From positions 1 to 53,456 of the forward strand of contig JAAYVC010000073.1 of assembly GCA_012517375.1 (NCBI GenBank): a stretch of DNA of 53,456 bases, written 5' to 3'. Every line of letters begins with the position of its first letter. Positions within the stretch are counted from its first letter, which is position 1. The notes under the pieces were generated by a model, which saw nothing but the letters and a program-made list of their open reading frames with translations, was not told the origin of the DNA and did not search any database. This DNA is from a bacterium (GTDB taxonomy: Bacteria; Hydrothermota; Tepidihabitantia; B3-TA06). The position numbers and the translations under genes were made by a program. Of the stretch, positions 43,218 through 53,456 are shown piece after piece.

Positions 43218-44186
43218 TCAAAGCCACTTCATCTCCTTGTACCAGTCCAACGTCTCGCGAACACCCTTGTAGATTTCTGTTCGAGGTCTCCATCCCAGTT
43301 CAAGGTTCGCACGCCTGGGCGAGATGAGCCAGTATCGCTTGGAAAACATCTCCAGCTGTTCGGGATTGAAGGCTGTCTTTGCCTTGAGAACCTTGGAGAT
43401 AAACCATGCTCCGAACATGATCAAGGCGAAGGGGACGGGGATGCGAAGCGCCCATCTATGCCATACCTGGCCTATTATCCGGTACAGCTCGTTGAAAGTA
43501 TTATTCGAGCCGTCTGAAATGTTGTAGATGCTTCCGCTTTTAACTTCGGACTCTATTGCCGCAACTACAGTCCGGGCAGCATCCTTAACATAGACAACGG
43601 ATATGAAGCGGTGCCTGACACCCACGCTGGGATTGATGAATATGTTGAACGTCTTGAATAACCTTAAGCCCTGCGTATCGCGAGGACCATAGATCATGGG
43701 GTAACGAAGTATTACTATGTCAATATCCTTGCTCAGACCAGTGAGGAACCTCTCAGCATCTTTTTTGCTTATGCCGTAGAGCGTGCAGGGAGCATCGGGT
43801 TCGTTGCCGTCCCTCTGAACTGGTCCGTTGCTCGGGCCTCCGGCTGCTATGCTCGATACGTAAATGAATTTCTTAATGCCAGCTCTGACGCTCTCCTCCG
43901 CGATGGTTTGCGTTATATCCGTATTAATCGAATGGTAATCTCCCCATAGAGCGCCTGCGGCATGTACTACGGCATCGACCCCGCAAAGAATTCGTGAGAG
44001 CGCGACCCTGTCGCTCAACTCGGCTACATGAATCCTAAGCCAGGAATGACTTATCCAGCGCCTCGAGCTCGTGGAACGGACAAGCGCATGCACCCGGTAT
44101 CCTGCTTCGTGGAGCGCCTCGCATATGTGCGAACCGAGGAACCCGGACGCACCGGTCACGAGAACGCTTCTGATATTCTTCTGCAT
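43218..44186 (-). CDS. NAD-dependent epimerase/3beta-HSD-like SDR, paralog 1
   Basis: 322 residues, extended SDR. NAD(P) motif TGASGFLGSHIC (11-22), catalytic Ser in YVSSIAAGG (111/112) and Y137-x3-K141 (LYGISKK). A hydrophobic stretch near 255-275 (FALIMFGAWFISKVL), as in HpnA/3beta-hydroxysteroid dehydrogenase-like enzymes, suggests a membrane-bound or lipidic substrate. C-terminal WRPRTEIYKGVRETLDWYK is shared with three paralogs upstream in tandem. TTGCCT, 16 bases, TATCAT, nine bases, ATG is a possible internal promoter. Exact reaction unknown. Confidence 0.83.
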   Translation of the reverse strand: MQKNIRSVLVTGASGFLGSHICEALHEAGYRVHALVRSTSSRRWISHSWLRIHVAELSDRVALSRILCGVDAVVHAAGALWGDYHSINTDITQTIAEESVRAGIKKFIYVSSIAAGGPSNGPVQRDGNEPDAPCTLYGISKKDAERFLTGLSKDIDIVILRYPMIYGPRDTQGLRLFKTFNIFINPSVGVRHRFISVVYVKDAARTVVAAIESEVKSGSIYNISDGSNNTFNELYRIIGQVWHRWALRIPVPFALIMFGAWFISKVLKAKTAFNPEQLEMFSKRYWLISPRRANLELGWRPRTEIYKGVRETLDWYKEMKWL

Positions 44187-44263
44187 CTTATACCAATGAT
44201 AATCCGATTATAATCAGAGGCAACAACCCTTGTCTATGTCAACATTTCCTTTTTTTAGTAAGG

Positions 44264-45244
44264 CTATAGCCACCCCTCGCTCCTGTACCACTCTGATGTA
44301 AGCGCAACACCCTCATCTAGCATTGTTTCCGGTTGCCAGTTCAGTTCTCTTGCTGCCCGCTCGATGGATACGAGACGATAACGATATCGGAAATCCCTGA
44401 TAGTCTCGGGCGTAAGCGCCAGTTCCCTCGTTCTCGACCCGTACATCAGTCCAACAAACGCTGCCGCCGGCCTTGCAGGGACCCTTATGATTCTTGGTTT
44501 TTTCCCAAGCGAAGAGGCGATTGACCTGTAAAAATCCTCAAGCGTGTGCGGCATACCGTCGGAGACGTAGTACGTTGAACCCGAAGGAACGGACGCACAA
44601 AGGGATGCAAGCACGGCCAGAGCCACGTCCCTGACAAAAACAAGAGACATATATACGGGTCTTGCACCAACGATAGGAACCGCCGGCATCGTTTTGATTA
44701 GTTTGAACAATCGAAAAAGATGCTTATCGCGCGGCCCGTAAATGAGGACGGGTCTCAGATTGACTATTGATATCTCATTCTTAAGGGTAGCAAGCGCCTC
44801 TTCCGCGTGCTTCTTGCTTTTGCCGTAAGGGGTATGAGGATTGTCAGGATCCGATTCCTTCTTAGGGATTATGTTTCGTGAGAATCCGCCCGCATCCCTG
44901 CTCGAAATGAACACGAATCTTCCGACGCGCATCCTTACTGCCTCCTCGGCCAGTATGCATGTAGCTTCAACATTGACTTTCTGCAAATCGTCAACACTTG
45001 CACCAATAAGTTCCGCAGCGGAATGAATAACCGCATCAAAACCTTTAAGCAGGGAGCGCAGACTGTTACGGTCGGTGAGTTCGAACGTATGCAGTTTGAG
45101 CCACGATTGACCAAGCCACTTTCTTGAGCTTGACGCGCGAACAAGGGCGTGTACTTCGAATCCCTCTTCATGAAGCGCGTCGCATATATGAGAGCCCAGG
45201 AAGCCGGATGCGCCTGTAACCAGAATCTTTCTTGTCTTTATCAT
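44264..45244 (-). CDS. NAD-dependent epimerase/3beta-HSD-like SDR, paralog 2
   Basis: 326 residues from ATG 45244, which gives the start MIKTRKILVTGASG; a frame extending 55 codons further runs into the upstream gene's 3' end and is not used. NAD motif TGASGFLGSHIC, active-site ISSRDAGG, Y140-x3-K144 (PYGKSKK). C-terminus NWQPETMLDEGVALTSEWYR. The hydrophobic segment is weaker than in paralogs 1 and 3. Closely similar to its neighbours throughout (VHALVRASSSRKWLGQSW), so it arose by local duplication. Confidence 0.83.
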   Translation of the reverse strand: MIKTRKILVTGASGFLGSHICDALHEEGFEVHALVRASSSRKWLGQSWLKLHTFELTDRNSLRSLLKGFDAVIHSAAELIGASVDDLQKVNVEATCILAEEAVRMRVGRFVFISSRDAGGFSRNIIPKKESDPDNPHTPYGKSKKHAEEALATLKNEISIVNLRPVLIYGPRDKHLFRLFKLIKTMPAVPIVGARPVYMSLVFVRDVALAVLASLCASVPSGSTYYVSDGMPHTLEDFYRSIASSLGKKPRIIRVPARPAAAFVGLMYGSRTRELALTPETIRDFRYRYRLVSIERAARELNWQPETMLDEGVALTSEWYRSEGWL

Positions 45245-45299
45245 CGTAATATCTCGACTATTGGTAATCCCATGCCCGTACATTGACAGAATAGTCCTT

Positions 45300-46286
45300 C
45301 TATATCCACTGATAAGTCCTGTACCATTCGGTCGTGCGCTTAATGCCTTCGCGAAGAAGCACCTCGGGCCGCCATCCGAGTTCCTTTTGCGCCTTGTCAG
45401 AGGAGGCAACCCAGAACTGGGCCTTCATCTCTTTAACCTTATCAGGAGTCAACGGCGTCCGTTTCTTAAGCAGCTTGACTAATATGAATACGGCAACGTC
45501 GAGAAGGAAAAAGGGAAGCTTGATAAGGATTCCTTTGCTGCCAAGGGAATCGGAAATCAGGTTATAGAGATACTCCATTGTCACAAGATAATCCATGCCG
45601 TCATTGATGTAGTAGAATGATCCGGACTTAACATTCGCGGTTACGGCTGCAACAGCCGCCTTGGCTGCATCGGTTACATAGAGCATCGAGACATAGGTGG
45701 GTCTGAACCCCGGATGAGGCTTTATGAAACTGCTAAGCATCTTGAAGACGCCCAGGAGTTCGGTTCCTCGCGGCCCGTAAATAGTCGGAAACCTCAAGCT
45801 CACGACTTCTATCCTATCGCGAAAAGAATAAAGCACTTCCTCGGCTTCTTTCTTGCTCTTACCATACCGGGATATGGGGCAATCAGGGTCTTCTTCTGTC
45901 TTCGTAATCTTGTCTTCGGTAGGGCCTCCTGCTGCATGGCTCGATATGAATACGAATCTACGCACTCCGGCTTTGATGCATTCCTCGACGAGGTTCTTCG
46001 TGCCTTCTACGTTAACCTTGTGATAAATCTCGGTATCTATCTCATTGGTTGCGCCTGCGTTGTGAATTACTGCGTCCATTTGCTTAAGCAGTGAGGCTAT
46101 ATCAGAGCATTCGTTGAGATCAACCGTATGCAGGTTAAGCCAGTAGTACTTAAGCCACTGACGCGAGCTCGTTTCTCGAATAAGGGCGTGCACTTCGTAA
46201 CCGGCTTCATGCGCAGCCTCGCAGATGTGTGAACCAAGGAATCCCGATGCTCCAGTAACGAGTATTTTTTTTGCCGAGCGCTTCAT
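45300..46286 (-). CDS. NAD-dependent epimerase/3beta-HSD-like SDR, paralog 3
   Basis: 328 residues from ATG 46286 (an in-frame ATG at 46298 would add four). NAD motif TGASGFLGSHIC, FISSHAAGG, Y141-x3-K145 (RYGKSKK). A long hydrophobic stretch FFLLDVAVFILVKLL lies near 260-275. C-terminus GWRPEVLLREGIKRTTEWYR. A TTGACT box (46321-46316) lies upstream with a poor -10, perhaps an internal promoter. Part of the four-gene SDR array. Confidence 0.82.
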   Translation of the reverse strand: MKRSAKKILVTGASGFLGSHICEAAHEAGYEVHALIRETSSRQWLKYYWLNLHTVDLNECSDIASLLKQMDAVIHNAGATNEIDTEIYHKVNVEGTKNLVEECIKAGVRRFVFISSHAAGGPTEDKITKTEEDPDCPISRYGKSKKEAEEVLYSFRDRIEVVSLRFPTIYGPRGTELLGVFKMLSSFIKPHPGFRPTYVSMLYVTDAAKAAVAAVTANVKSGSFYYINDGMDYLVTMEYLYNLISDSLGSKGILIKLPFFLLDVAVFILVKLLKKRTPLTPDKVKEMKAQFWVASSDKAQKELGWRPEVLLREGIKRTTEWYRTYQWI

Positions 46287-46335
46287 GAAATAATCCATCT
46301 AATGGGATTAGCCGGAGTCAACGATACAAAATCAA

Positions 46336-47313
46336 TCACAGCCATCCATGTTCCTTGTACCAGTCAACGGTTGCACGAAGACCTTCCTTAAGTCTGAACC
46401 CCGGTTTCCAGCCAAGCTCCCTTCTTGCCTTTTCAGCAGACGCGTACCAGTAAAGGGCTCTGAATTGGCGAACCTGGTCAGGAGAAATTCCGCGGGCGTT
46501 TGCAATATCGTGGTTCCACCATGCTGCAAGCGACACAAGCCAGAACGGAATCTTACGCCTGCGTCCTTTTTTTTCCTTTCCTAGAACATCCTCTATGCAA
46601 TCGTAAAGCAAATCCAGAGTGTAGCACTCTCCGTCAGTAATCTGATATACCCCTCCGGGCTCGACTTCGGCGGAAAGGGCTGACAGGGCTGCGTTAGCGG
46701 CGTCCTTGACATAGACCATCGAAGTGTAGATAGGTTTATACCCCATCAGAGGAATTGTCCTGCCGCTGGCGGCCTTGAAAAAGCCGAGAATATTGCGGTC
46801 CCGAGGCCCGTATATCATCGAATAGCGCAGGCTGATTGTGAATAGGCTTTTGGATAGTGATGACAGGGTTCTTTCGGCTTCAAGCTTGCTCCGGCCGTAG
46901 TGGGATACAGGTCTATCGGGATCGGTCTCTGTTCTTGCCTCGGGTCCGCTCCCCGGACCTCCTGCGGCAAGGCTCGATACGAAAACGAATCGTTTGACTC
47001 CTTTGTTGATGCACTCCACGACAAGTTTCTTTGTCAGTTCGAGGTTTGTTCGGCGCGAATCCCTTTCATTTCTCGAAGTAGTGGCTAGCACTCCTGCGTT
47101 ATGGATGACATAGTCGATTCCCTCAAGATACGAGGAGATTTTATCCTTGTCAGAGAGTTCCGCCCTGATGACGTTTAAGCCCTCGCCGAGCCACCCGGCG
47201 GAGCTTTCCGGCCTTATGAGCGCGTAAACATCATAGCCACGGCTTCTTGCAGCTTCACATATGTGAGAGCCCAGGAAGCCGGATGCACCGGTAACGAGTA
47301 CTCTTTCAGACAT
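46336..47313 (-). CDS. NAD-dependent epimerase/3beta-HSD-like SDR, paralog 4
   Basis: 325 residues. NAD motif VTGASGFLGSHIC, FVSSLAAGG, Y139-x3-K143 (HYGRSKL). Shares the C-terminal GWKPGFRLKEGLRATVDWYK with its neighbours but is the most diverged in the first 60 residues (YALIRPESSAGWLGEG). Its start overlaps the end of the deaminase gene by eight bases, so the two are translationally coupled. Hydrophobic segment IPFWLVSLAAWW near 265. Confidence 0.83.
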   Translation of the reverse strand: MSERVLVTGASGFLGSHICEAARSRGYDVYALIRPESSAGWLGEGLNVIRAELSDKDKISSYLEGIDYVIHNAGVLATTSRNERDSRRTNLELTKKLVVECINKGVKRFVFVSSLAAGGPGSGPEARTETDPDRPVSHYGRSKLEAERTLSSLSKSLFTISLRYSMIYGPRDRNILGFFKAASGRTIPLMGYKPIYTSMVYVKDAANAALSALSAEVEPGGVYQITDGECYTLDLLYDCIEDVLGKEKKGRRRKIPFWLVSLAAWWNHDIANARGISPDQVRQFRALYWYASAEKARRELGWKPGFRLKEGLRATVDWYKEHGWL

Positions 47314-48628
47314 TAGCTCTGGAATCTCTGATCTTTTTAGACCAGCATCTTGCCTCTTTCAAGACCTCCGCTTCATCGAGACCGGTGACTTTTCCATCCT
47401 TAAGAACCCTTCTGCCTTCAACATACACATCCCTTACATCAGACCCTCCTGCCGCATAAACAAGAGTCGAATAAACGTCATAAGAAGGCGTGTTATGCGG
47501 CCGCGACAGATCAACAACCACAACATCAGCCTTCTTTCCAACCTCGATTGATCCGAGTTCGGCCTCAATGCCCCATGTACGGGCGGCATCGATGGTGACG
47601 GTTCGCAGAGCCTCCTTGGCAGAAAGCGATGTAGGGTCAAGAGAACTCCCTTTTGCAAGGAGCGCGGCAAGCCGCATCTCCTCCCAGATATCCAGATTGT
47701 TGTTCGACGCCGCGCTGTCCGTTCCGAGCGACATGCGGATACCTTTTTTCAAATAGAGTCCGAAGGGCGGTATTCCCGATGCAAGCTTAAGGTTCGATTG
47801 AGGACATAGCACAACACCAATATTATCCTTCTTTAGGAGGTCCAGGTCCCCTTCCTGAGGCCAAACCATGTGGACAAGACCAATCCGGGTATCAAGCAGA
47901 CCTATTTCGCTCAAGTATGCAACCTGGCTCTTACCGCGTTTGGCAATGGATTCCTGCGCTTCTTTTTCCGTCTCGGCGCAGTGTATCTGTACTGGCAGAT
48001 TCCACAGCGAGGCAAGTTCTGCCGCACGGTGCAGCTGGTCTTCGGTTGTCGCATAAGTGGAATGACAGGCTATGGATAGGTGCACAAGCGAATCGTCCCG
48101 ATACTTCTCGTATTGCTCCTTGATGTTCTTGAAGGTATCTTCGGGGTTCTTGGCCGAAGGCGTAGGGAAAGCAAGAAGCCCTTCTCCTAGCTGGATTCTT
48201 ATGCCGGCATCTTTTGCGGCTCGGGCAGCCTCGTGCTCGAAAAAGTACATGTCGGAGAAAAAGGTTGTTCCGGACTTAAGCATCTCGACCGCAGCGAGCC
48301 TTACACCTGCCCTGATAAACTCCGGAGAAAGATGTTTTGCCTCAAGCGGCCAGATGTGTCCGGAAAGCCATTCATCCAGGGGAAGATCGTCCGCAATACC
48401 CCTGAAGAGACACATTGCAGCATGGTTGTGGGAGTTGATTAACCCCGGTATTATGGCAGCATCACCGTAATCAATGGTTTCGACTGAAAAAACTTTATCC
48501 TCTGTGCTCCCCGTCGACTTAATCGTGCCTCCCTCTATCTCCACATAGCCTGGAGAAAAAAGAGAAGCTTTCTCGTCCATTGAAACTACGTGCTTCGCTT
48601 TAAGCAGGAAGTGATTGCTTGCGTTCAT
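47306..48628 (-). CDS. mtaD: MTA/SAH-deaminase-type amidohydrolase
   Basis: 440 residues. Metal-dependent amidohydrolase of the 5-methylthioadenosine/S-adenosylhomocysteine deaminase branch. Ligands and motifs in order: NSHNHAAM (H67, H69), FRGIADDLPLDEWL, IHCAETEKE, VHMVWP and LGTDSAASNNNLD. The ATG at 48628 is chosen over a GTG at 48634 because the promoter's -10 box ends seven bases before the ATG. First gene of a leftward unit of probably six. Chlorohydrolase-like relatives with other aminated purine or triazine substrates are an alternative. Confidence 0.85.
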   Translation of the reverse strand: MNASNHFLLKAKHVVSMDEKASLFSPGYVEIEGGTIKSTGSTEDKVFSVETIDYGDAAIIPGLINSHNHAAMCLFRGIADDLPLDEWLSGHIWPLEAKHLSPEFIRAGVRLAAVEMLKSGTTFFSDMYFFEHEAARAAKDAGIRIQLGEGLLAFPTPSAKNPEDTFKNIKEQYEKYRDDSLVHLSIACHSTYATTEDQLHRAAELASLWNLPVQIHCAETEKEAQESIAKRGKSQVAYLSEIGLLDTRIGLVHMVWPQEGDLDLLKKDNIGVVLCPQSNLKLASGIPPFGLYLKKGIRMSLGTDSAASNNNLDIWEEMRLAALLAKGSSLDPTSLSAKEALRTVTIDAARTWGIEAELGSIEVGKKADVVVVDLSRPHNTPSYDVYSTLVYAAGGSDVRDVYVEGRRVLKDGKVTGLDEAEVLKEARCWSKKIRDSRANV

Positions 48629-48635
48629 TATCACG

Positions 48636-48919: not shown

Positions 48920-48974
48920 TATTGAATTGTAGGCGTCGGATTGTTCGAAAGTTTTTCATATCCCAGGAGGATAA

Positions 48975-51062
48975 ATGAGACGTAGTATAGTACTTGTATG
49001 TCTTTCATTTTTAACAGGTTTCGGCGTTAAGCTCGAACTGCACGACGGCCGAACACTCAAGACTAGCGATATATTTTTCAACGGAAAACAGTTCATCACT
49101 GATACGGACACAATACCGGCAGGCGAGGTTAAGGAAGTCATCTTTGAAAACACGACCGGTCAGGGTTCGGGAACAGCAAGAGTAAGCGGCGATATTGCTG
49201 AACTTTTAAGCAATGCTCAAACAGCGAAGGAGAAATTCCCTGATGCAAAGGGAATACTGCTTCTTGATGACGGAAGCGATATCCTGATGGATGACCGCAC
49301 ACAGATTTATTCATATCACATGGCTTATCTCGTGCTCTCAGAAGCGCGGAAGGATATTGCCACTTTCAGGGCATACTACAGGGAGGGTGAGAACGACGTA
49401 AAGGTCCACTTTGCAAGGGTAATAAAGCCCGACGGTAAGGTCATCGAACTCGACAAGTCGACGATAAGGATAGAAACCCCGCCCAGGGAGGATATAGTCT
49501 TTTTCGGAAAAGGGCAGTGGATGACGTTTACACTTCCAGGCGTTGAGATAGGCGATATTGTTGAGTATTCGTACGAAAGCATAGATTTGAACCCGTGGAA
49601 CAAGGATATATTCGATGCCGGTTTTTATTTCGAGGGCGAAGACCCCTACGTCTTTTCCCGGCTTACCGTGGACGTGCCCGAGACCGAATTCATAAAATGG
49701 AGGTCGTACCGGATGCCTGCGGGAGCATCCGAACCCGTAATCTCGACGAAAGACGGCAGAAAAACCTATGTCTGGACAACTAAAAACATGAAGCCGTATA
49801 TACCCGAGTCTAACTCTCCTCCTGCAGGCGATTTTCTTGCAAGGGTTGACGTCACGAACCAGGAATCCTGGGATAAGCTTTTCGACTGGTACGCAGCCTT
49901 CCAGACCGAGAGAATGAAGGTTACGCCCCAGATTCAAAAGCTCACCGACAGCCTTGTTGCCTCTGCCCTGACTAAGGACGATACAATAGCGGCGCTCTAT
50001 TACTGGACTCAGCTCAACATCCGCTACATATCCATTAAAGGAAGCGCGTCCTCCGGGGTATCAGGTCATCCTGCCCAGTTCACTCTTGACAGAGGCTTCG
50101 GAGATTGTACGGACAAGGCTATACTCTTTTCCACCATGCTGAAATCACAAGGAATAGAGGCCTATCCAGTGTATCTCGGAACGAACGACGAGGACCCCAT
50201 GCTCGACCCGGATATTCCGAGCTACTACGGCAATCACTGCATAACCAAGGTTTATCTGCCCGATACAAGCTTCTATCTTGATGCAACAGGTTCGTCTGAC
50301 GGCGGGTTCTCTCGTTATCCATCCTTTTCATCCATGGATCACGGCGTTTATTCGGTAAACGCGCTAAAACGAGAGGTTGAGATAATCCCGGTGCCGGAAC
50401 CAACGCAGGAACTGCGCGAATACCACATGGATCTTGAGATAGATGAAGACGGTTCGCTTATTGTTCGTTACCAGAGTTTCTACGACGGCGAATTCGAAAC
50501 CGGCCTGCGGTATTACTGGAACTACTTTTCCAGGGAAGAGGACAAGAGAATGCGTTTCGAGCAGATGGTCAAAGCCGAATCGCCCGATGCCGAGTTAATC
50601 GACTACGATGTTGTGAACATCGGGGATCTCAGCAAGCAGCTGAGCCTCAAGATAACATACAAGGTAAGGAATTACGTGGCATTTGCAGGGTCTGTAGGGC
50701 TCGTCAACCTGCCTGAGATTGCACGCAGGTACACTTTTGACGAACTCGACCTTGAATCGAGAAAGCTTCCCCTTGCCTACAGCACAAGCGAGGGAATACG
50801 TCATACAGTCACTCTGAGACTTCCCGAAAACTGGAAACCGGACTTTATACCTCCCGAGATAGACCTCAAAACACCGGACGTTTCTTACCGCGCTTCTTAT
50901 ACCGAAGATGAGGACGGACTCATACACTTCGAAGACGACTTTGCACGCTCGTCACGGCTTATTCCGCCTGAAAGATACAAATCCTTCAAAAAGCTTCTGA
51001 ACTCGATAACGAACTACCACAAGAAACCTATCCTTGTCAAGGTCGAAGGAGGTGGCCAATGA
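48975..51062 (+). CDS. Exported DUF3857/transglutaminase-like protein, catalytic triad intact
   Basis: 695 residues. Signal peptide MRRSIVLVCLSFLTGFG, a small N-terminal beta region (LELHDGRTLKTSDIFF), a DUF3857 domain (about 100-280) and a transglutaminase core with triad C378 (GFGDCTDKA), H421 (GNHCITKV) and D436 (YLDATG). The C-terminal part is another beta domain ending at LVKVEGG. Such proteins are periplasmic and may cut or crosslink peptides or peptidoglycan; the substrate is unknown. AGGAGG precedes the ATG, and the stop overlaps the start of a paralog. Confidence 0.85.
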   Translation: MRRSIVLVCLSFLTGFGVKLELHDGRTLKTSDIFFNGKQFITDTDTIPAGEVKEVIFENTTGQGSGTARVSGDIAELLSNAQTAKEKFPDAKGILLLDDGSDILMDDRTQIYSYHMAYLVLSEARKDIATFRAYYREGENDVKVHFARVIKPDGKVIELDKSTIRIETPPREDIVFFGKGQWMTFTLPGVEIGDIVEYSYESIDLNPWNKDIFDAGFYFEGEDPYVFSRLTVDVPETEFIKWRSYRMPAGASEPVISTKDGRKTYVWTTKNMKPYIPESNSPPAGDFLARVDVTNQESWDKLFDWYAAFQTERMKVTPQIQKLTDSLVASALTKDDTIAALYYWTQLNIRYISIKGSASSGVSGHPAQFTLDRGFGDCTDKAILFSTMLKSQGIEAYPVYLGTNDEDPMLDPDIPSYYGNHCITKVYLPDTSFYLDATGSSDGGFSRYPSFSSMDHGVYSVNALKREVEIIPVPEPTQELREYHMDLEIDEDGSLIVRYQSFYDGEFETGLRYYWNYFSREEDKRMRFEQMVKAESPDAELIDYDVVNIGDLSKQLSLKITYKVRNYVAFAGSVGLVNLPEIARRYTFDELDLESRKLPLAYSTSEGIRHTVTLRLPENWKPDFIPPEIDLKTPDVSYRASYTEDEDGLIHFEDDFARSSRLIPPERYKSFKKLLNSITNYHKKPILVKVEGGGQ

Positions 51063-53125
51063 AGCGCCTTCTTTATATCGCGATTATTGTTCTTCTTTCA
51101 GGATGCAGACCCTCAGTACGTTCGAGCCATGACGTAATATACCTGGTCAACGGAGAGGAAAAAACAGGCACCCTTGAAAAGATTACCTCAGACAGCGTAT
51201 GGTTTTCAACACCGGAAGGAAAGCTTGAAGCCGCCAAATCAGAGGTCGCAAGCATCGATATCCCGCAGCCGCGCGAAGGAGACCAGTGGAAGACCGTCAA
51301 GGACATAGACGATCCGGTATTGAAGGAAGTCCTTTCGAGCTTCACCCCTCCTGAAGACATTGGTCTTTCCGACGTGAACTTCATCAACCTTTACGTTGAA
51401 CACACCTACTCCTTGCGTGATGACGGAAAAGCAGAGGTTCGCGAGCGCGTGATTCGTTTCATCACTGCTGAAGCGGGAAAGGGTCAGGCCGCCAACAATA
51501 CGTGGCTTTATCTTTCTGACCGCTCCCGCGCAAAGCTCGATTTCGCCCGCGGCATAACACTCGAAGGAATAGTAACATCCATCAACGAAGCTGCAATTAA
51601 CCGCACGAGCCTTTACCCCGCGCCTGCCGAATACAGCAATTTGATGCAGATTCAGATAGCGGTTCCGGAATCGAAACTTGGCTCGATTTTAGATTTCCAG
51701 TTTTCAAAGATAGTGGACGTCATTGACAGCCTGCATCCATTCTCTGAACAGCTCATTCTCGAATCAAACGAACCGACCCTCAAGGAGATTGTAAAGGTCG
51801 AACAGCCTCAAAACGGTCCGCTAGCGGTCTGGGTCTCGACCGGCGATGCTCCGCGCAAGGAGACAAGACAGGGCAGGGAGATTCTTACATGGGAGATTCC
51901 GACACAGCTTCCTAAAAGGTTCGAGTATAATCTTCCTCCCTCAGCGGACTACCTGCCGCGCTTTATCGTAAGCGAAAAGGGCGACTGGCAGACCATCGCG
52001 GCGAGACTTAAGCCGTCGTTCGACTATGCGGTAACGCCTGGCAGTACGCTTGCCTCGCTGGTCGATTCGCTCACGAAAGGTCTTTCGACGAGTGAGGAGA
52101 AGGCCCGGGCGCTTTATTCGTTCGTCGCGACGAACGTGCGCTATACAGGCCCCGCTCCTGACCGCTTCTCATACGCGCCCACCCAGTGCGAGGATGTGCT
52201 TTCGCGCAGATTCGCTAACAACCTCGACCGCGCCACTCTTCTTTACGCAATGATGCTCGAAGCCGGTCTCGATGCGGACCTCGTTCTCATACGCAGCCGT
52301 TGGTCCGGCAGGCTTATCCCCTCCTTCCCCTCGCTCGGTCAGCTTAACTACGCGCTCGTGCTTTTTGAAGACCGCATCTGGCTCGACCCAGTACCCGATC
52401 TTGCATACGGCACGCTCAACGAGCAGGACGCTATGGGTTTATCTATATCTTCGGGAAAGCTGAAGAAAACGCCGTTCTTGAGTCCTGCGGAGGACGCATC
52501 CGTCACGCATTCCGAAGCAAGGCTGAACTCAGACGGCTCCCTCGATTTGACTACGCGGGTCGATTTCACTGGCAGGACTTCGTACTCATGGAAAAGCTAT
52601 CTTAAGCCCATGTCCGCGGACGAGCGAAAGCAGGAAGCCGAAAGGCTTGCATCCGAGATTCATCCGAACGCGGCGCTGCGCTCATTCGAGTTCAAGGGCG
52701 TTGAAAATCTTAACGACAACGTTTCGTACACGCTCAGGGTCAGCATTCCCGACTACGCCGTGAGCGCGGGCGACTACTTGCTTTTCTATCTGCCGGGAGT
52801 CACGCATTCAGCGTATTCGGTCGGTTCAGCGCAAAGGCTCTACCCCATTGACCGCCGGACGCGCACATCCGATATGCTCGATTTGACGTTAGAGCTTCCT
52901 GCGGGCGCAGTCCTTCTCGAACTGCCGAAGGATGTATCGCTGAAGACGAAGCAGGACTCATATTCGGCGACCAACCTAACGCCAAGACCGGGCGCAATGA
53001 AGTTCACGGAAAGCGTGCAGGTTCTTGACCCCTGGATTGCGCCTGAGGCTTACCCTGAATACAAGGCGCTTATCGAAGGCATGGCGCGCGTGAACCAGAA
53101 GCCGCTGGTGCTTAAGCTCAAGTAA
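51059..53125 (+). CDS. DUF3857/transglutaminase-like lipoprotein, catalytically degenerate
   Basis: 688 residues, same domain order as the preceding gene. Lipoprotein signal MKRLLYIAIIVLLSGC (acylated Cys 16). The transglutaminase fold is present, but two of three catalytic residues are replaced: the Cys position is N388 (RFANNLDRA against GFGDCTDKA) and the His position is Y431 (LNYALV against NHCITKV), while D443 (WLDPVP) remains. It is probably a binding or regulatory partner of the active copy. ATGA overlap gives coupled translation and suggests a complex. No frameshift is seen; the frame is long and well kept. Confidence 0.85.
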   Translation: MKRLLYIAIIVLLSGCRPSVRSSHDVIYLVNGEEKTGTLEKITSDSVWFSTPEGKLEAAKSEVASIDIPQPREGDQWKTVKDIDDPVLKEVLSSFTPPEDIGLSDVNFINLYVEHTYSLRDDGKAEVRERVIRFITAEAGKGQAANNTWLYLSDRSRAKLDFARGITLEGIVTSINEAAINRTSLYPAPAEYSNLMQIQIAVPESKLGSILDFQFSKIVDVIDSLHPFSEQLILESNEPTLKEIVKVEQPQNGPLAVWVSTGDAPRKETRQGREILTWEIPTQLPKRFEYNLPPSADYLPRFIVSEKGDWQTIAARLKPSFDYAVTPGSTLASLVDSLTKGLSTSEEKARALYSFVATNVRYTGPAPDRFSYAPTQCEDVLSRRFANNLDRATLLYAMMLEAGLDADLVLIRSRWSGRLIPSFPSLGQLNYALVLFEDRIWLDPVPDLAYGTLNEQDAMGLSISSGKLKKTPFLSPAEDASVTHSEARLNSDGSLDLTTRVDFTGRTSYSWKSYLKPMSADERKQEAERLASEIHPNAALRSFEFKGVENLNDNVSYTLRVSIPDYAVSAGDYLLFYLPGVTHSAYSVGSAQRLYPIDRRTRTSDMLDLTLELPAGAVLLELPKDVSLKTKQDSYSATNLTPRPGAMKFTESVQVLDPWIAPEAYPEYKALIEGMARVNQKPLVLKLK

Positions 53126-53145: not shown

Positions 53146-53176
53146 AAAGAGGCGGGGCAACCCCGTCTCTTTTTTT
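53146..53176 (+). terminator. Intrinsic terminator of the DUF3857 operon
   Basis: AAAGAGGCGGGG (53146-53157) pairs with CCCCGTCTCTTT (53161-53172, one G-U) around CAA, followed by a T-run. A classic rho-independent form. Confidence 0.92.
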
Positions 53177-53264: not shown

Positions 53265-53456
53265 ATGAAACCCTTAAGTATTGGAGGAAGGGCTTTACTC
53301 GCACTGCTGGTCATTGCTGCAGGCTTCGCGGCTTTCGCCGACACCGACTGGTCAGGCTACGGAACGGGCGATTGGGGAGGTCTGCATCCCTTCTACATCT
53401 GGCAGGGAACCCTTGTAACCAGCTCAACGCCAAACAAGTTCGAGGGCTACTGGGGT
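53265..53456 (+). CDS. Exported protein, 3'-truncated by the window
   Basis: The first 64 residues only. Signal peptide with basic n-region and a clear hydrophobic core (LLALLVIAAGFAAFA), then a Trp/Gly-rich mature start (DTDWSGYGTGDWGG, FEGYWG) like beta-rich surface proteins of this type of genome. CGGAG precedes the ATG. TTGACA at 53186-53191 is a likely -35 box, but the long T-run after it leaves the -10 unclear. The family is not recognised. Confidence 0.7.
   Translation, partial: MKPLSIGGRALLALLVIAAGFAAFADTDWSGYGTGDWGGLHPFYIWQGTLVTSSTPNKFEGYWG

Follow-up and report, generated by a model that had tools for sequence, protein, structure and literature searches.

A conserved tandem of intact and catalytically inactivated DUF3857 transglutaminase-fold proteins in bacteria

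A coupled gene pair near the end of the window

The stretch of DNA analyzed here in full, referred to as the window, is the 53,456-nucleotide contig JAAYVC010000073.1 of a 2.5-Mb metagenome-assembled genome (MAG), whose closest named relatives carry the record titles 'candidate division WOR-3' and 'Candidatus Stahlbacteria'. Close to its 3' end lie two overlapping genes, gene 1 and gene 2, which encode paralogous proteins with a transglutaminase fold. The products share 22% identity over nearly their whole length (E=2e-28). Both exceed the Pfam gathering cut-offs for DUF3857 (PF12969; 92.8 bits for gene 1 and 45.0 bits for gene 2, cut-off 24.6) and for Transglut_core (PF01841; 39.4 and 30.3 bits, cut-off 23). 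At the expected C-terminal place, matches to DUF3858 (PF12970) reached 20.0 and 14.2 bits. Because these values fall below the cut-off of 27 bits, the C-terminal ends of both proteins are designated 'DUF3858-like' only. A DUF3857 search of this genome returned no further such gene besides the pair.

A preliminary description of the window had proposed that the first protein carries a full Cys-His-Asp triad, and that the second keeps the fold and the Asp with Asn388 and Tyr431 replacing Cys and His. Inspection of the aligned columns confirmed both assignments (gene 1: C378/H421/D436; gene 2: N388/Y431/D443). Structure models calculated with AlphaFold2 (AF2) had predicted local distance difference test (pLDDT) values of 86.5 for gene 1 and 89.6 for gene 2, the latter with a predicted template modeling score of 0.86. 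The intact triad suggests that the gene 1 product is an active enzyme. Within the family of gene 2, every homolog whose sequence extends to the site carries Asn in place of the Cys and Tyr, Thr, Lys or Glu in place of the His; because they all share the loss, a sequencing or alignment accident can be regarded as excluded by these comparisons. Signal peptides point to an extracytoplasmic location of both proteins. In the window, the second protein is moreover a predicted lipoprotein as proposed, since it contains a canonical lipobox.

The gene upstream of gene 1 points in the opposite direction and a strong terminator follows directly downstream of gene 2, so that genes 1 and 2 form, as judged from their layout, a closed two-gene unit (Table 1). 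Equal synthesis of the two proteins, which had been deduced from the ATGA overlap, is not established by it because gene 2 has its own strong Shine-Dalgarno sequence. Nor is such an overlap general, as it occurs in just 22 of the 71 complete pairs described below.

Table 1. Features of the gene pair in the window
Feature	Position	Strand	Description	Basis
Gene 1	48975..51062	+	695 aa, DUF3857-transglutaminase-core-DUF3858-like, predicted secreted, intact triad	open reading frame
Gene 2	51059..53125	+	688 aa, paralogous pseudoenzyme, predicted lipoprotein in this genome	open reading frame
ATGA stop-start overlap of genes 1 and 2	51059..51062	+		sequence
Gene 1 Shine-Dalgarno sequence	48965..48970	+	AGGAGG, strong	sequence
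Gene 2 Shine-Dalgarno sequence	51046..51052	+	AAGGAGG, strong, within the 3' end of gene 1	sequence
Gene 1 Cys378 codon	50106..50108	+	TGT, nucleophile; motif GFGDCTDK	invariant in alignment A1; aligned column
Gene 1 His421 codon	50235..50237	+	CAC; motif GNHCITK	invariant in alignment A1; aligned column
Gene 1 Asp436 codon	50280..50282	+	GAT; motif YLDATG	invariant in alignment A1; aligned column
Gene 2 lipobox	51095..51106	+	LSGC (Cys16), canonical	sequence; pattern match
Gene 2 Asn388 codon	52220..52222	+	AAC, at the Cys position	FANNLDR aligned to FGDCTDK
Gene 2 Tyr431 codon	52349..52351	+	TAC, at the His position	LNYALV aligned to GNHCITK
Gene 2 Asp443 codon	52385..52387	+	GAC, kept here, lost in many other dead partners	aligned column; dead-state tally
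Intrinsic terminator	53146..53176	+	12-bp hairpin and T run; RNA fold -22.2 kcal/mol, z -4.35	also in consensus scan

Four tandem paralogous genes for NAD-dependent epimerases/dehydratases occupy positions 43218-47313 on the - strand. An amidohydrolase gene (47306-48634) adjoins this array and is divergent from the transglutaminase-fold pair. Just past the terminator, a further secreted-looking gene begins and runs off the end of the window (53266-53456).

Conservation of the pair in other genomes

For a survey of other genomes, regions were fetched, homologous frames were collected by iterated profile search and aligned, and the three catalytic columns were read. Proteins with an intact triad are called active and their inactivated paralogs dead. 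Gene 2 homologs were present in 41 of 100 relatives. DUF3857 genes occurred in 63 of the 147 genomes from the window's phylum. Co-occurrence of the two genes, set beforehand as a test of the proposal, was strong. The resolved two-gene tandems of the phylum comprised 55 active-dead pairs. Other patterns there were one array of four active genes and one dead gene and one active-active arrangement cut by a contig end, and a few loci had one unreadable member. Outside the phylum, 16 active-dead tandems and one dead-active tandem were found. Among the complete adjacent pairs, defined by a length of at least 500 aa for both members (n=71), the active gene precedes the dead gene in 70. The spacing is at most 60 bp in 68 of the 71; 35 overlap or abut, including 22 with a 4-bp overlap. 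The expectation that the Cys/His loss always resides in the second gene thus holds for 70 of 71 pairs; it fails for the sole dead-first pair (L132:2762-6936, titled Planctomycetota) and for several lineages in which the partners are unlinked.

Copy numbers are balanced as well. Within the phylum, 33 genomes carry one active and one dead gene, eight carry two of each and one carries three of each. The array mentioned above (L041:4857-15400 in genome G001), in which a single dead copy comes after four active ones, was the sole such active expansion seen; it is what one would predict for a dead protein that serves as a shared subunit. Active and dead paralogs are conserved together, as is typical of prozyme-type pairs. 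Hosts were titled WOR-3/Stahlbacteria, Hydrothermota, TA06, Latescibacteria, Zixibacteria, Planctomycetota/Phycisphaerae, a deltaproteobacterium and Riflebacteria, to which Parabacteroides and Persicobacter are added from two plasmid-collection records, the source of all Bacteroidota pairs. As titles of MAG records may be wrong or fall in one modern phylum, no exact phylum count is claimed. Clustering of the flanking genes of all loci revealed no neighbor that recurs across pairs, and for this reason the genomic context gives no clue to a pathway. A comparison with PADLOC-DB gave no match and hence no known anti-phage defense protein.

The pairs fall into two lineages, A (31 pairs) and B (38 pairs). 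The active motif is GDCTDK in lineage A, to which the window belongs, and GVCRDK or GVCKDK in lineage B. In the trees, 28 active and 29 dead proteins of lineage A form separate groups (support 100 each), as do 22 active (support 99.8) and 21 dead proteins (support 94) of lineage B. No protein with an intact triad was found inside either dead group; the presence of such a protein had been named as the result that would speak against the proposal. Furthermore, A and B members were not mixed in the trees: dead A proteins accompany active A proteins and dead B proteins accompany active B proteins, even in genomes carrying both systems. The distance matrices of the partners are correlated with r=0.84 (A) and r=0.83 (B), compared with maxima of about 0.32 after shuffling. 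These mirrored distances demonstrate joint inheritance and are compatible with, yet do not prove, physical contact.

How often catalysis was lost was addressed by several trees. In an early one, 44 of the 45 dead rows fell on the same side of a branch with a support of 81. A wider tree joined the active with the dead proteins of lineage A at a support of 85, rising to 92 after long rows were dropped, and a constraint that held all dead proteins together was not rejected (approximately unbiased test, p-AU 0.56). These results would fit either one or more origins of the dead copies. An apparently independent loss of catalysis is represented by L063:3689-7539 (G065), whose dead member groups with partnerless active proteins of a GDCKD motif and in which both members have a lipobox. 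The Persicobacter locus (L155) perhaps represents a further separate loss.

Separation of the two genes is usually not accompanied by loss of either. The active gene is solitary in Lentisphaerae, Kiritimatiellota and two Planctomycetota genomes, where one dead gene is located elsewhere in the same genome. Both partners are kept in this unlinked form in G103, G110, G112, G113, G115, G117 and G118 (titled Lentisphaerae, Kiritimatiellota, Planctomycetota and, in one case, Paceibacterota), and likewise, for type A, in G104, G107, G108, G114 and G116. Unlinked copies with both partners kept also occur within the window's phylum (G065, G076 and G087). Because operon hitchhiking cannot explain it, retention after unlinking is the best evidence that these genome comparisons offer for a functional partnership.

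The dead partner and the solved structure 3KD4

Loss of the triad is accompanied by a relaxed active site. Among dead partners, the Cys column is occupied by any of 16 residues and the His column by any of 13. Conservation of the active proteins of lineage A is by far the highest in the transglutaminase core (0.72), whereas the core of the dead proteins is of only average conservation (0.49). The region around the Cys differs even more (0.84 in active versus 0.50 in dead proteins). In contrast, the N-terminal small barrel is better conserved in the dead (0.54) than in the active proteins (0.46). Median distances are larger for dead than for active proteins (1.80 versus 1.18 in A; 2.59 versus 1.88 in B). 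The dead site thus seems to drift freely under constraint on the remainder of the protein, which fits a non-catalytic 'prozyme'-like partner. As far as alignments and models indicate, catalysis is gone and unreplaced at the same place, and the fold is kept.

Asp390 is invariant in the dead proteins of lineage A. Some dead proteins retain part of the triad. In one subclade of lineage B, the Cys is kept and the His is lost (CWD/CGD); its dead partners L055, L056, L058, L059 and L061 have the Cys in four of five cases and Trp or Gly in place of His. A few others keep the His and have lost the Cys (NHD/PHD). In very divergent dead proteins the calls for His and Asp depend on the alignment, while the Cys motif is clear. 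A search of the dead site for substitute catalytic residues found none conserved, given the diversity of both columns.

The lipid anchor was examined with a regular expression for the lipobox in 65 testable pairs. It was found in the dead protein only in 12 pairs, in the active protein only in 12, in both in one and in neither in 40. A membrane-anchored pseudoenzyme, as suggested initially, is therefore predicted in the window and in some of its relatives but not family-wide, and the anchor is ruled out as a defining feature. The distribution fits an anchor that, where present, may be supplied by either partner.

The best match of both window models in the PDB is 3KD4, BDI_1141 of Parabacteroides distasonis, deposited as 'putative protease' (E=4e-33 and a template modeling (TM) score by target of 0.83 for the gene 2 model; E=1e-32 for the gene 1 model). 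It was the sole DUF3857-type structure found by sequence. In the 3KD4 protein, YGTPLE takes the place of the active motif GDCTDK, and Pro, Thr and Ser occupy the Cys, His and Asp positions of the alignment. In a P. distasonis record (L154), its gene is located 13 bp after a paralog with an intact Cys-His-Asp triad; visual comparison of the printed portions showed no difference between the product of this second gene and the 3KD4 sequence. By these comparisons, the founding DUF3857/DUF3858 structure is the dead member of a pair. BDI_1141 shares the core architecture of the window proteins and its gene directly follows that of an intact-triad paralog. With its triad residues replaced, it corresponds to gene 2 and probably not to a protease. 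It differs in belonging to pair lineage B, in a signal peptide without lipobox, in its length of 527 aa and in lacking the N-terminal small barrel. After 3KD4, both window models matched domains of ribophorin I/OST1 and of M1 aminopeptidase with low TM-scores, which suggests beta domains of these types in the models.

A non-catalytic partner and its relation to known enzyme pairs

We propose, with a probability of about 0.6, that the enzyme and its paralogous pseudoenzyme act as one extracytoplasmic envelope system in which gene 2 supplies a dedicated non-catalytic partner. The catalytic subunit would be the gene 1 product, acting as a cysteine hydrolase or transferase with a transglutaminase fold. 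The gene 2 product would have kept the whole fold, given up catalysis and taken the role of a stabilizing, activating or substrate-presenting subunit, as in enzyme-'prozyme' pairs. The carrier of the lipid anchor would vary by lineage and be the dead partner in the window. Probably the dead copy is not a duplicate in decay but an obligate functional partner, most likely a subunit without catalysis of its own. The 1:1 retention, the matching of lineages and the array of four active genes and one dead gene are most simply explained by a heteromer; from these we infer physical contact and a direction of control between the partners. The broader view, to which we give about even odds, is that this envelope enzyme works obligately as a heteromer, in which an active subunit is joined by a dead paralog, in two ancient lineages and many phyla, unrecognized because the founding structure 3KD4 is the dead subunit. 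The initial idea of an active/dead transglutaminase-fold pair kept together is thereby upheld, without the dead partner as a general membrane anchor and without the dead gene necessarily being second.

Several observations weigh against this partnership. An active copy with no dead gene found is present in G109, G111, G225 and at some contig ends, which may reflect incompleteness or real losses. Mirror trees and adjacency are also produced by shared vertical inheritance. Finally, the third active lineage, with the GDCKD motif (L053, L057, L080, L087 and L097, and Proteobacteria such as L157-L161), lacks a dead partner in every locus examined, so that the fold in general does not need one.

Other roles of the dead paralog have to be considered. 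It might bind a peptide, a glycan or an envelope polymer on its own and serve the same pathway with no direct contact to the enzyme. Loss of catalysis in a retained fold, the better conservation of DUF3857 and the N-terminal barrel within the dead protein and the tolerance of an unlinked arrangement all agree with such a binder. However, the strict A/A and B/B matching exceeds what a shared pathway needs, and we regard this explanation as unlikely. An inhibitor or immunity-like protein that checks the active enzyme during secretion, as in protease-inhibitor pairs, would fit the co-expression layout and the 1:1 retention equally well, and a dead homolog might act by blocking the active site or by binding the substrate of the enzyme. 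Such a function is nevertheless rather improbable, as conservation of the dead protein is not raised around its former active site relative to the remainder and no toxin or defense context was detected, neither with PADLOC nor by a consistently shared neighbor.

The faster evolution of the dead copies would also be expected of an ordinary tandem duplicate that decays or is unrelated in function, its adjacency being merely inherited. Full-length intact dead frames in nearly every complete locus across very deep divergence, retention of the dead gene after unlinking and the confident AF2 fold of gene 2 make this very improbable. Hardly any weight is given to catalysis by a different, new set of residues: Asp443 in the window, the invariant Asp390 of lineage A and the Cys of the one B subclade could be taken in its favor, but the site shows no conserved replacement.

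If most DUF3857 proteins belong to active-dead pairs, as did most of those examined, assays of single proteins may fail for want of the partner. A protease annotation of the dead member, as for 3KD4, is probably wrong, and a check of two residues suffices to correct genome annotation. Linked and unlinked pairs moreover provide a natural series for studying why dead enzymes persist. To our knowledge, DUF3857 proteins, which are found in many envelope-rich bacteria, have no known function. A literature search, whose coverage left out most subscription journals, returned DUF3857 only in passing, as a gene beside lolA, no mention of DUF3858 or BDI_1141 and nothing relevant on pseudoenzyme transglutaminase pairs.

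Solo GDCKD proteins of Proteobacteria and some WOR-3 genomes have the same domains as the window pair with intact Cys and His and differ in the missing adjacent dead partner in the loci examined. The transglutaminase fold also has active and inactivated members in PNGase and Rad4/XPC, where the inactivated branch gained a binding role; these proteins are eukaryotic, are not encoded as gene pairs and have other accessory domains. Pairs of active and dead paralogs are of a known kind, of which an exported, very widespread transglutaminase-fold version appears to be undescribed. Close parallels are enzyme-prozyme pairs such as trypanosomatid S-adenosylmethionine decarboxylase and its prozyme, deoxyhypusine synthase, or ClpP/ClpR of cyanobacteria. 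Their complexes have been shown and are cytoplasmic or organellar, whereas the window pair is predicted to be exported and its complex is presumed; in both, paralogous active and dead copies are kept as a functional unit.

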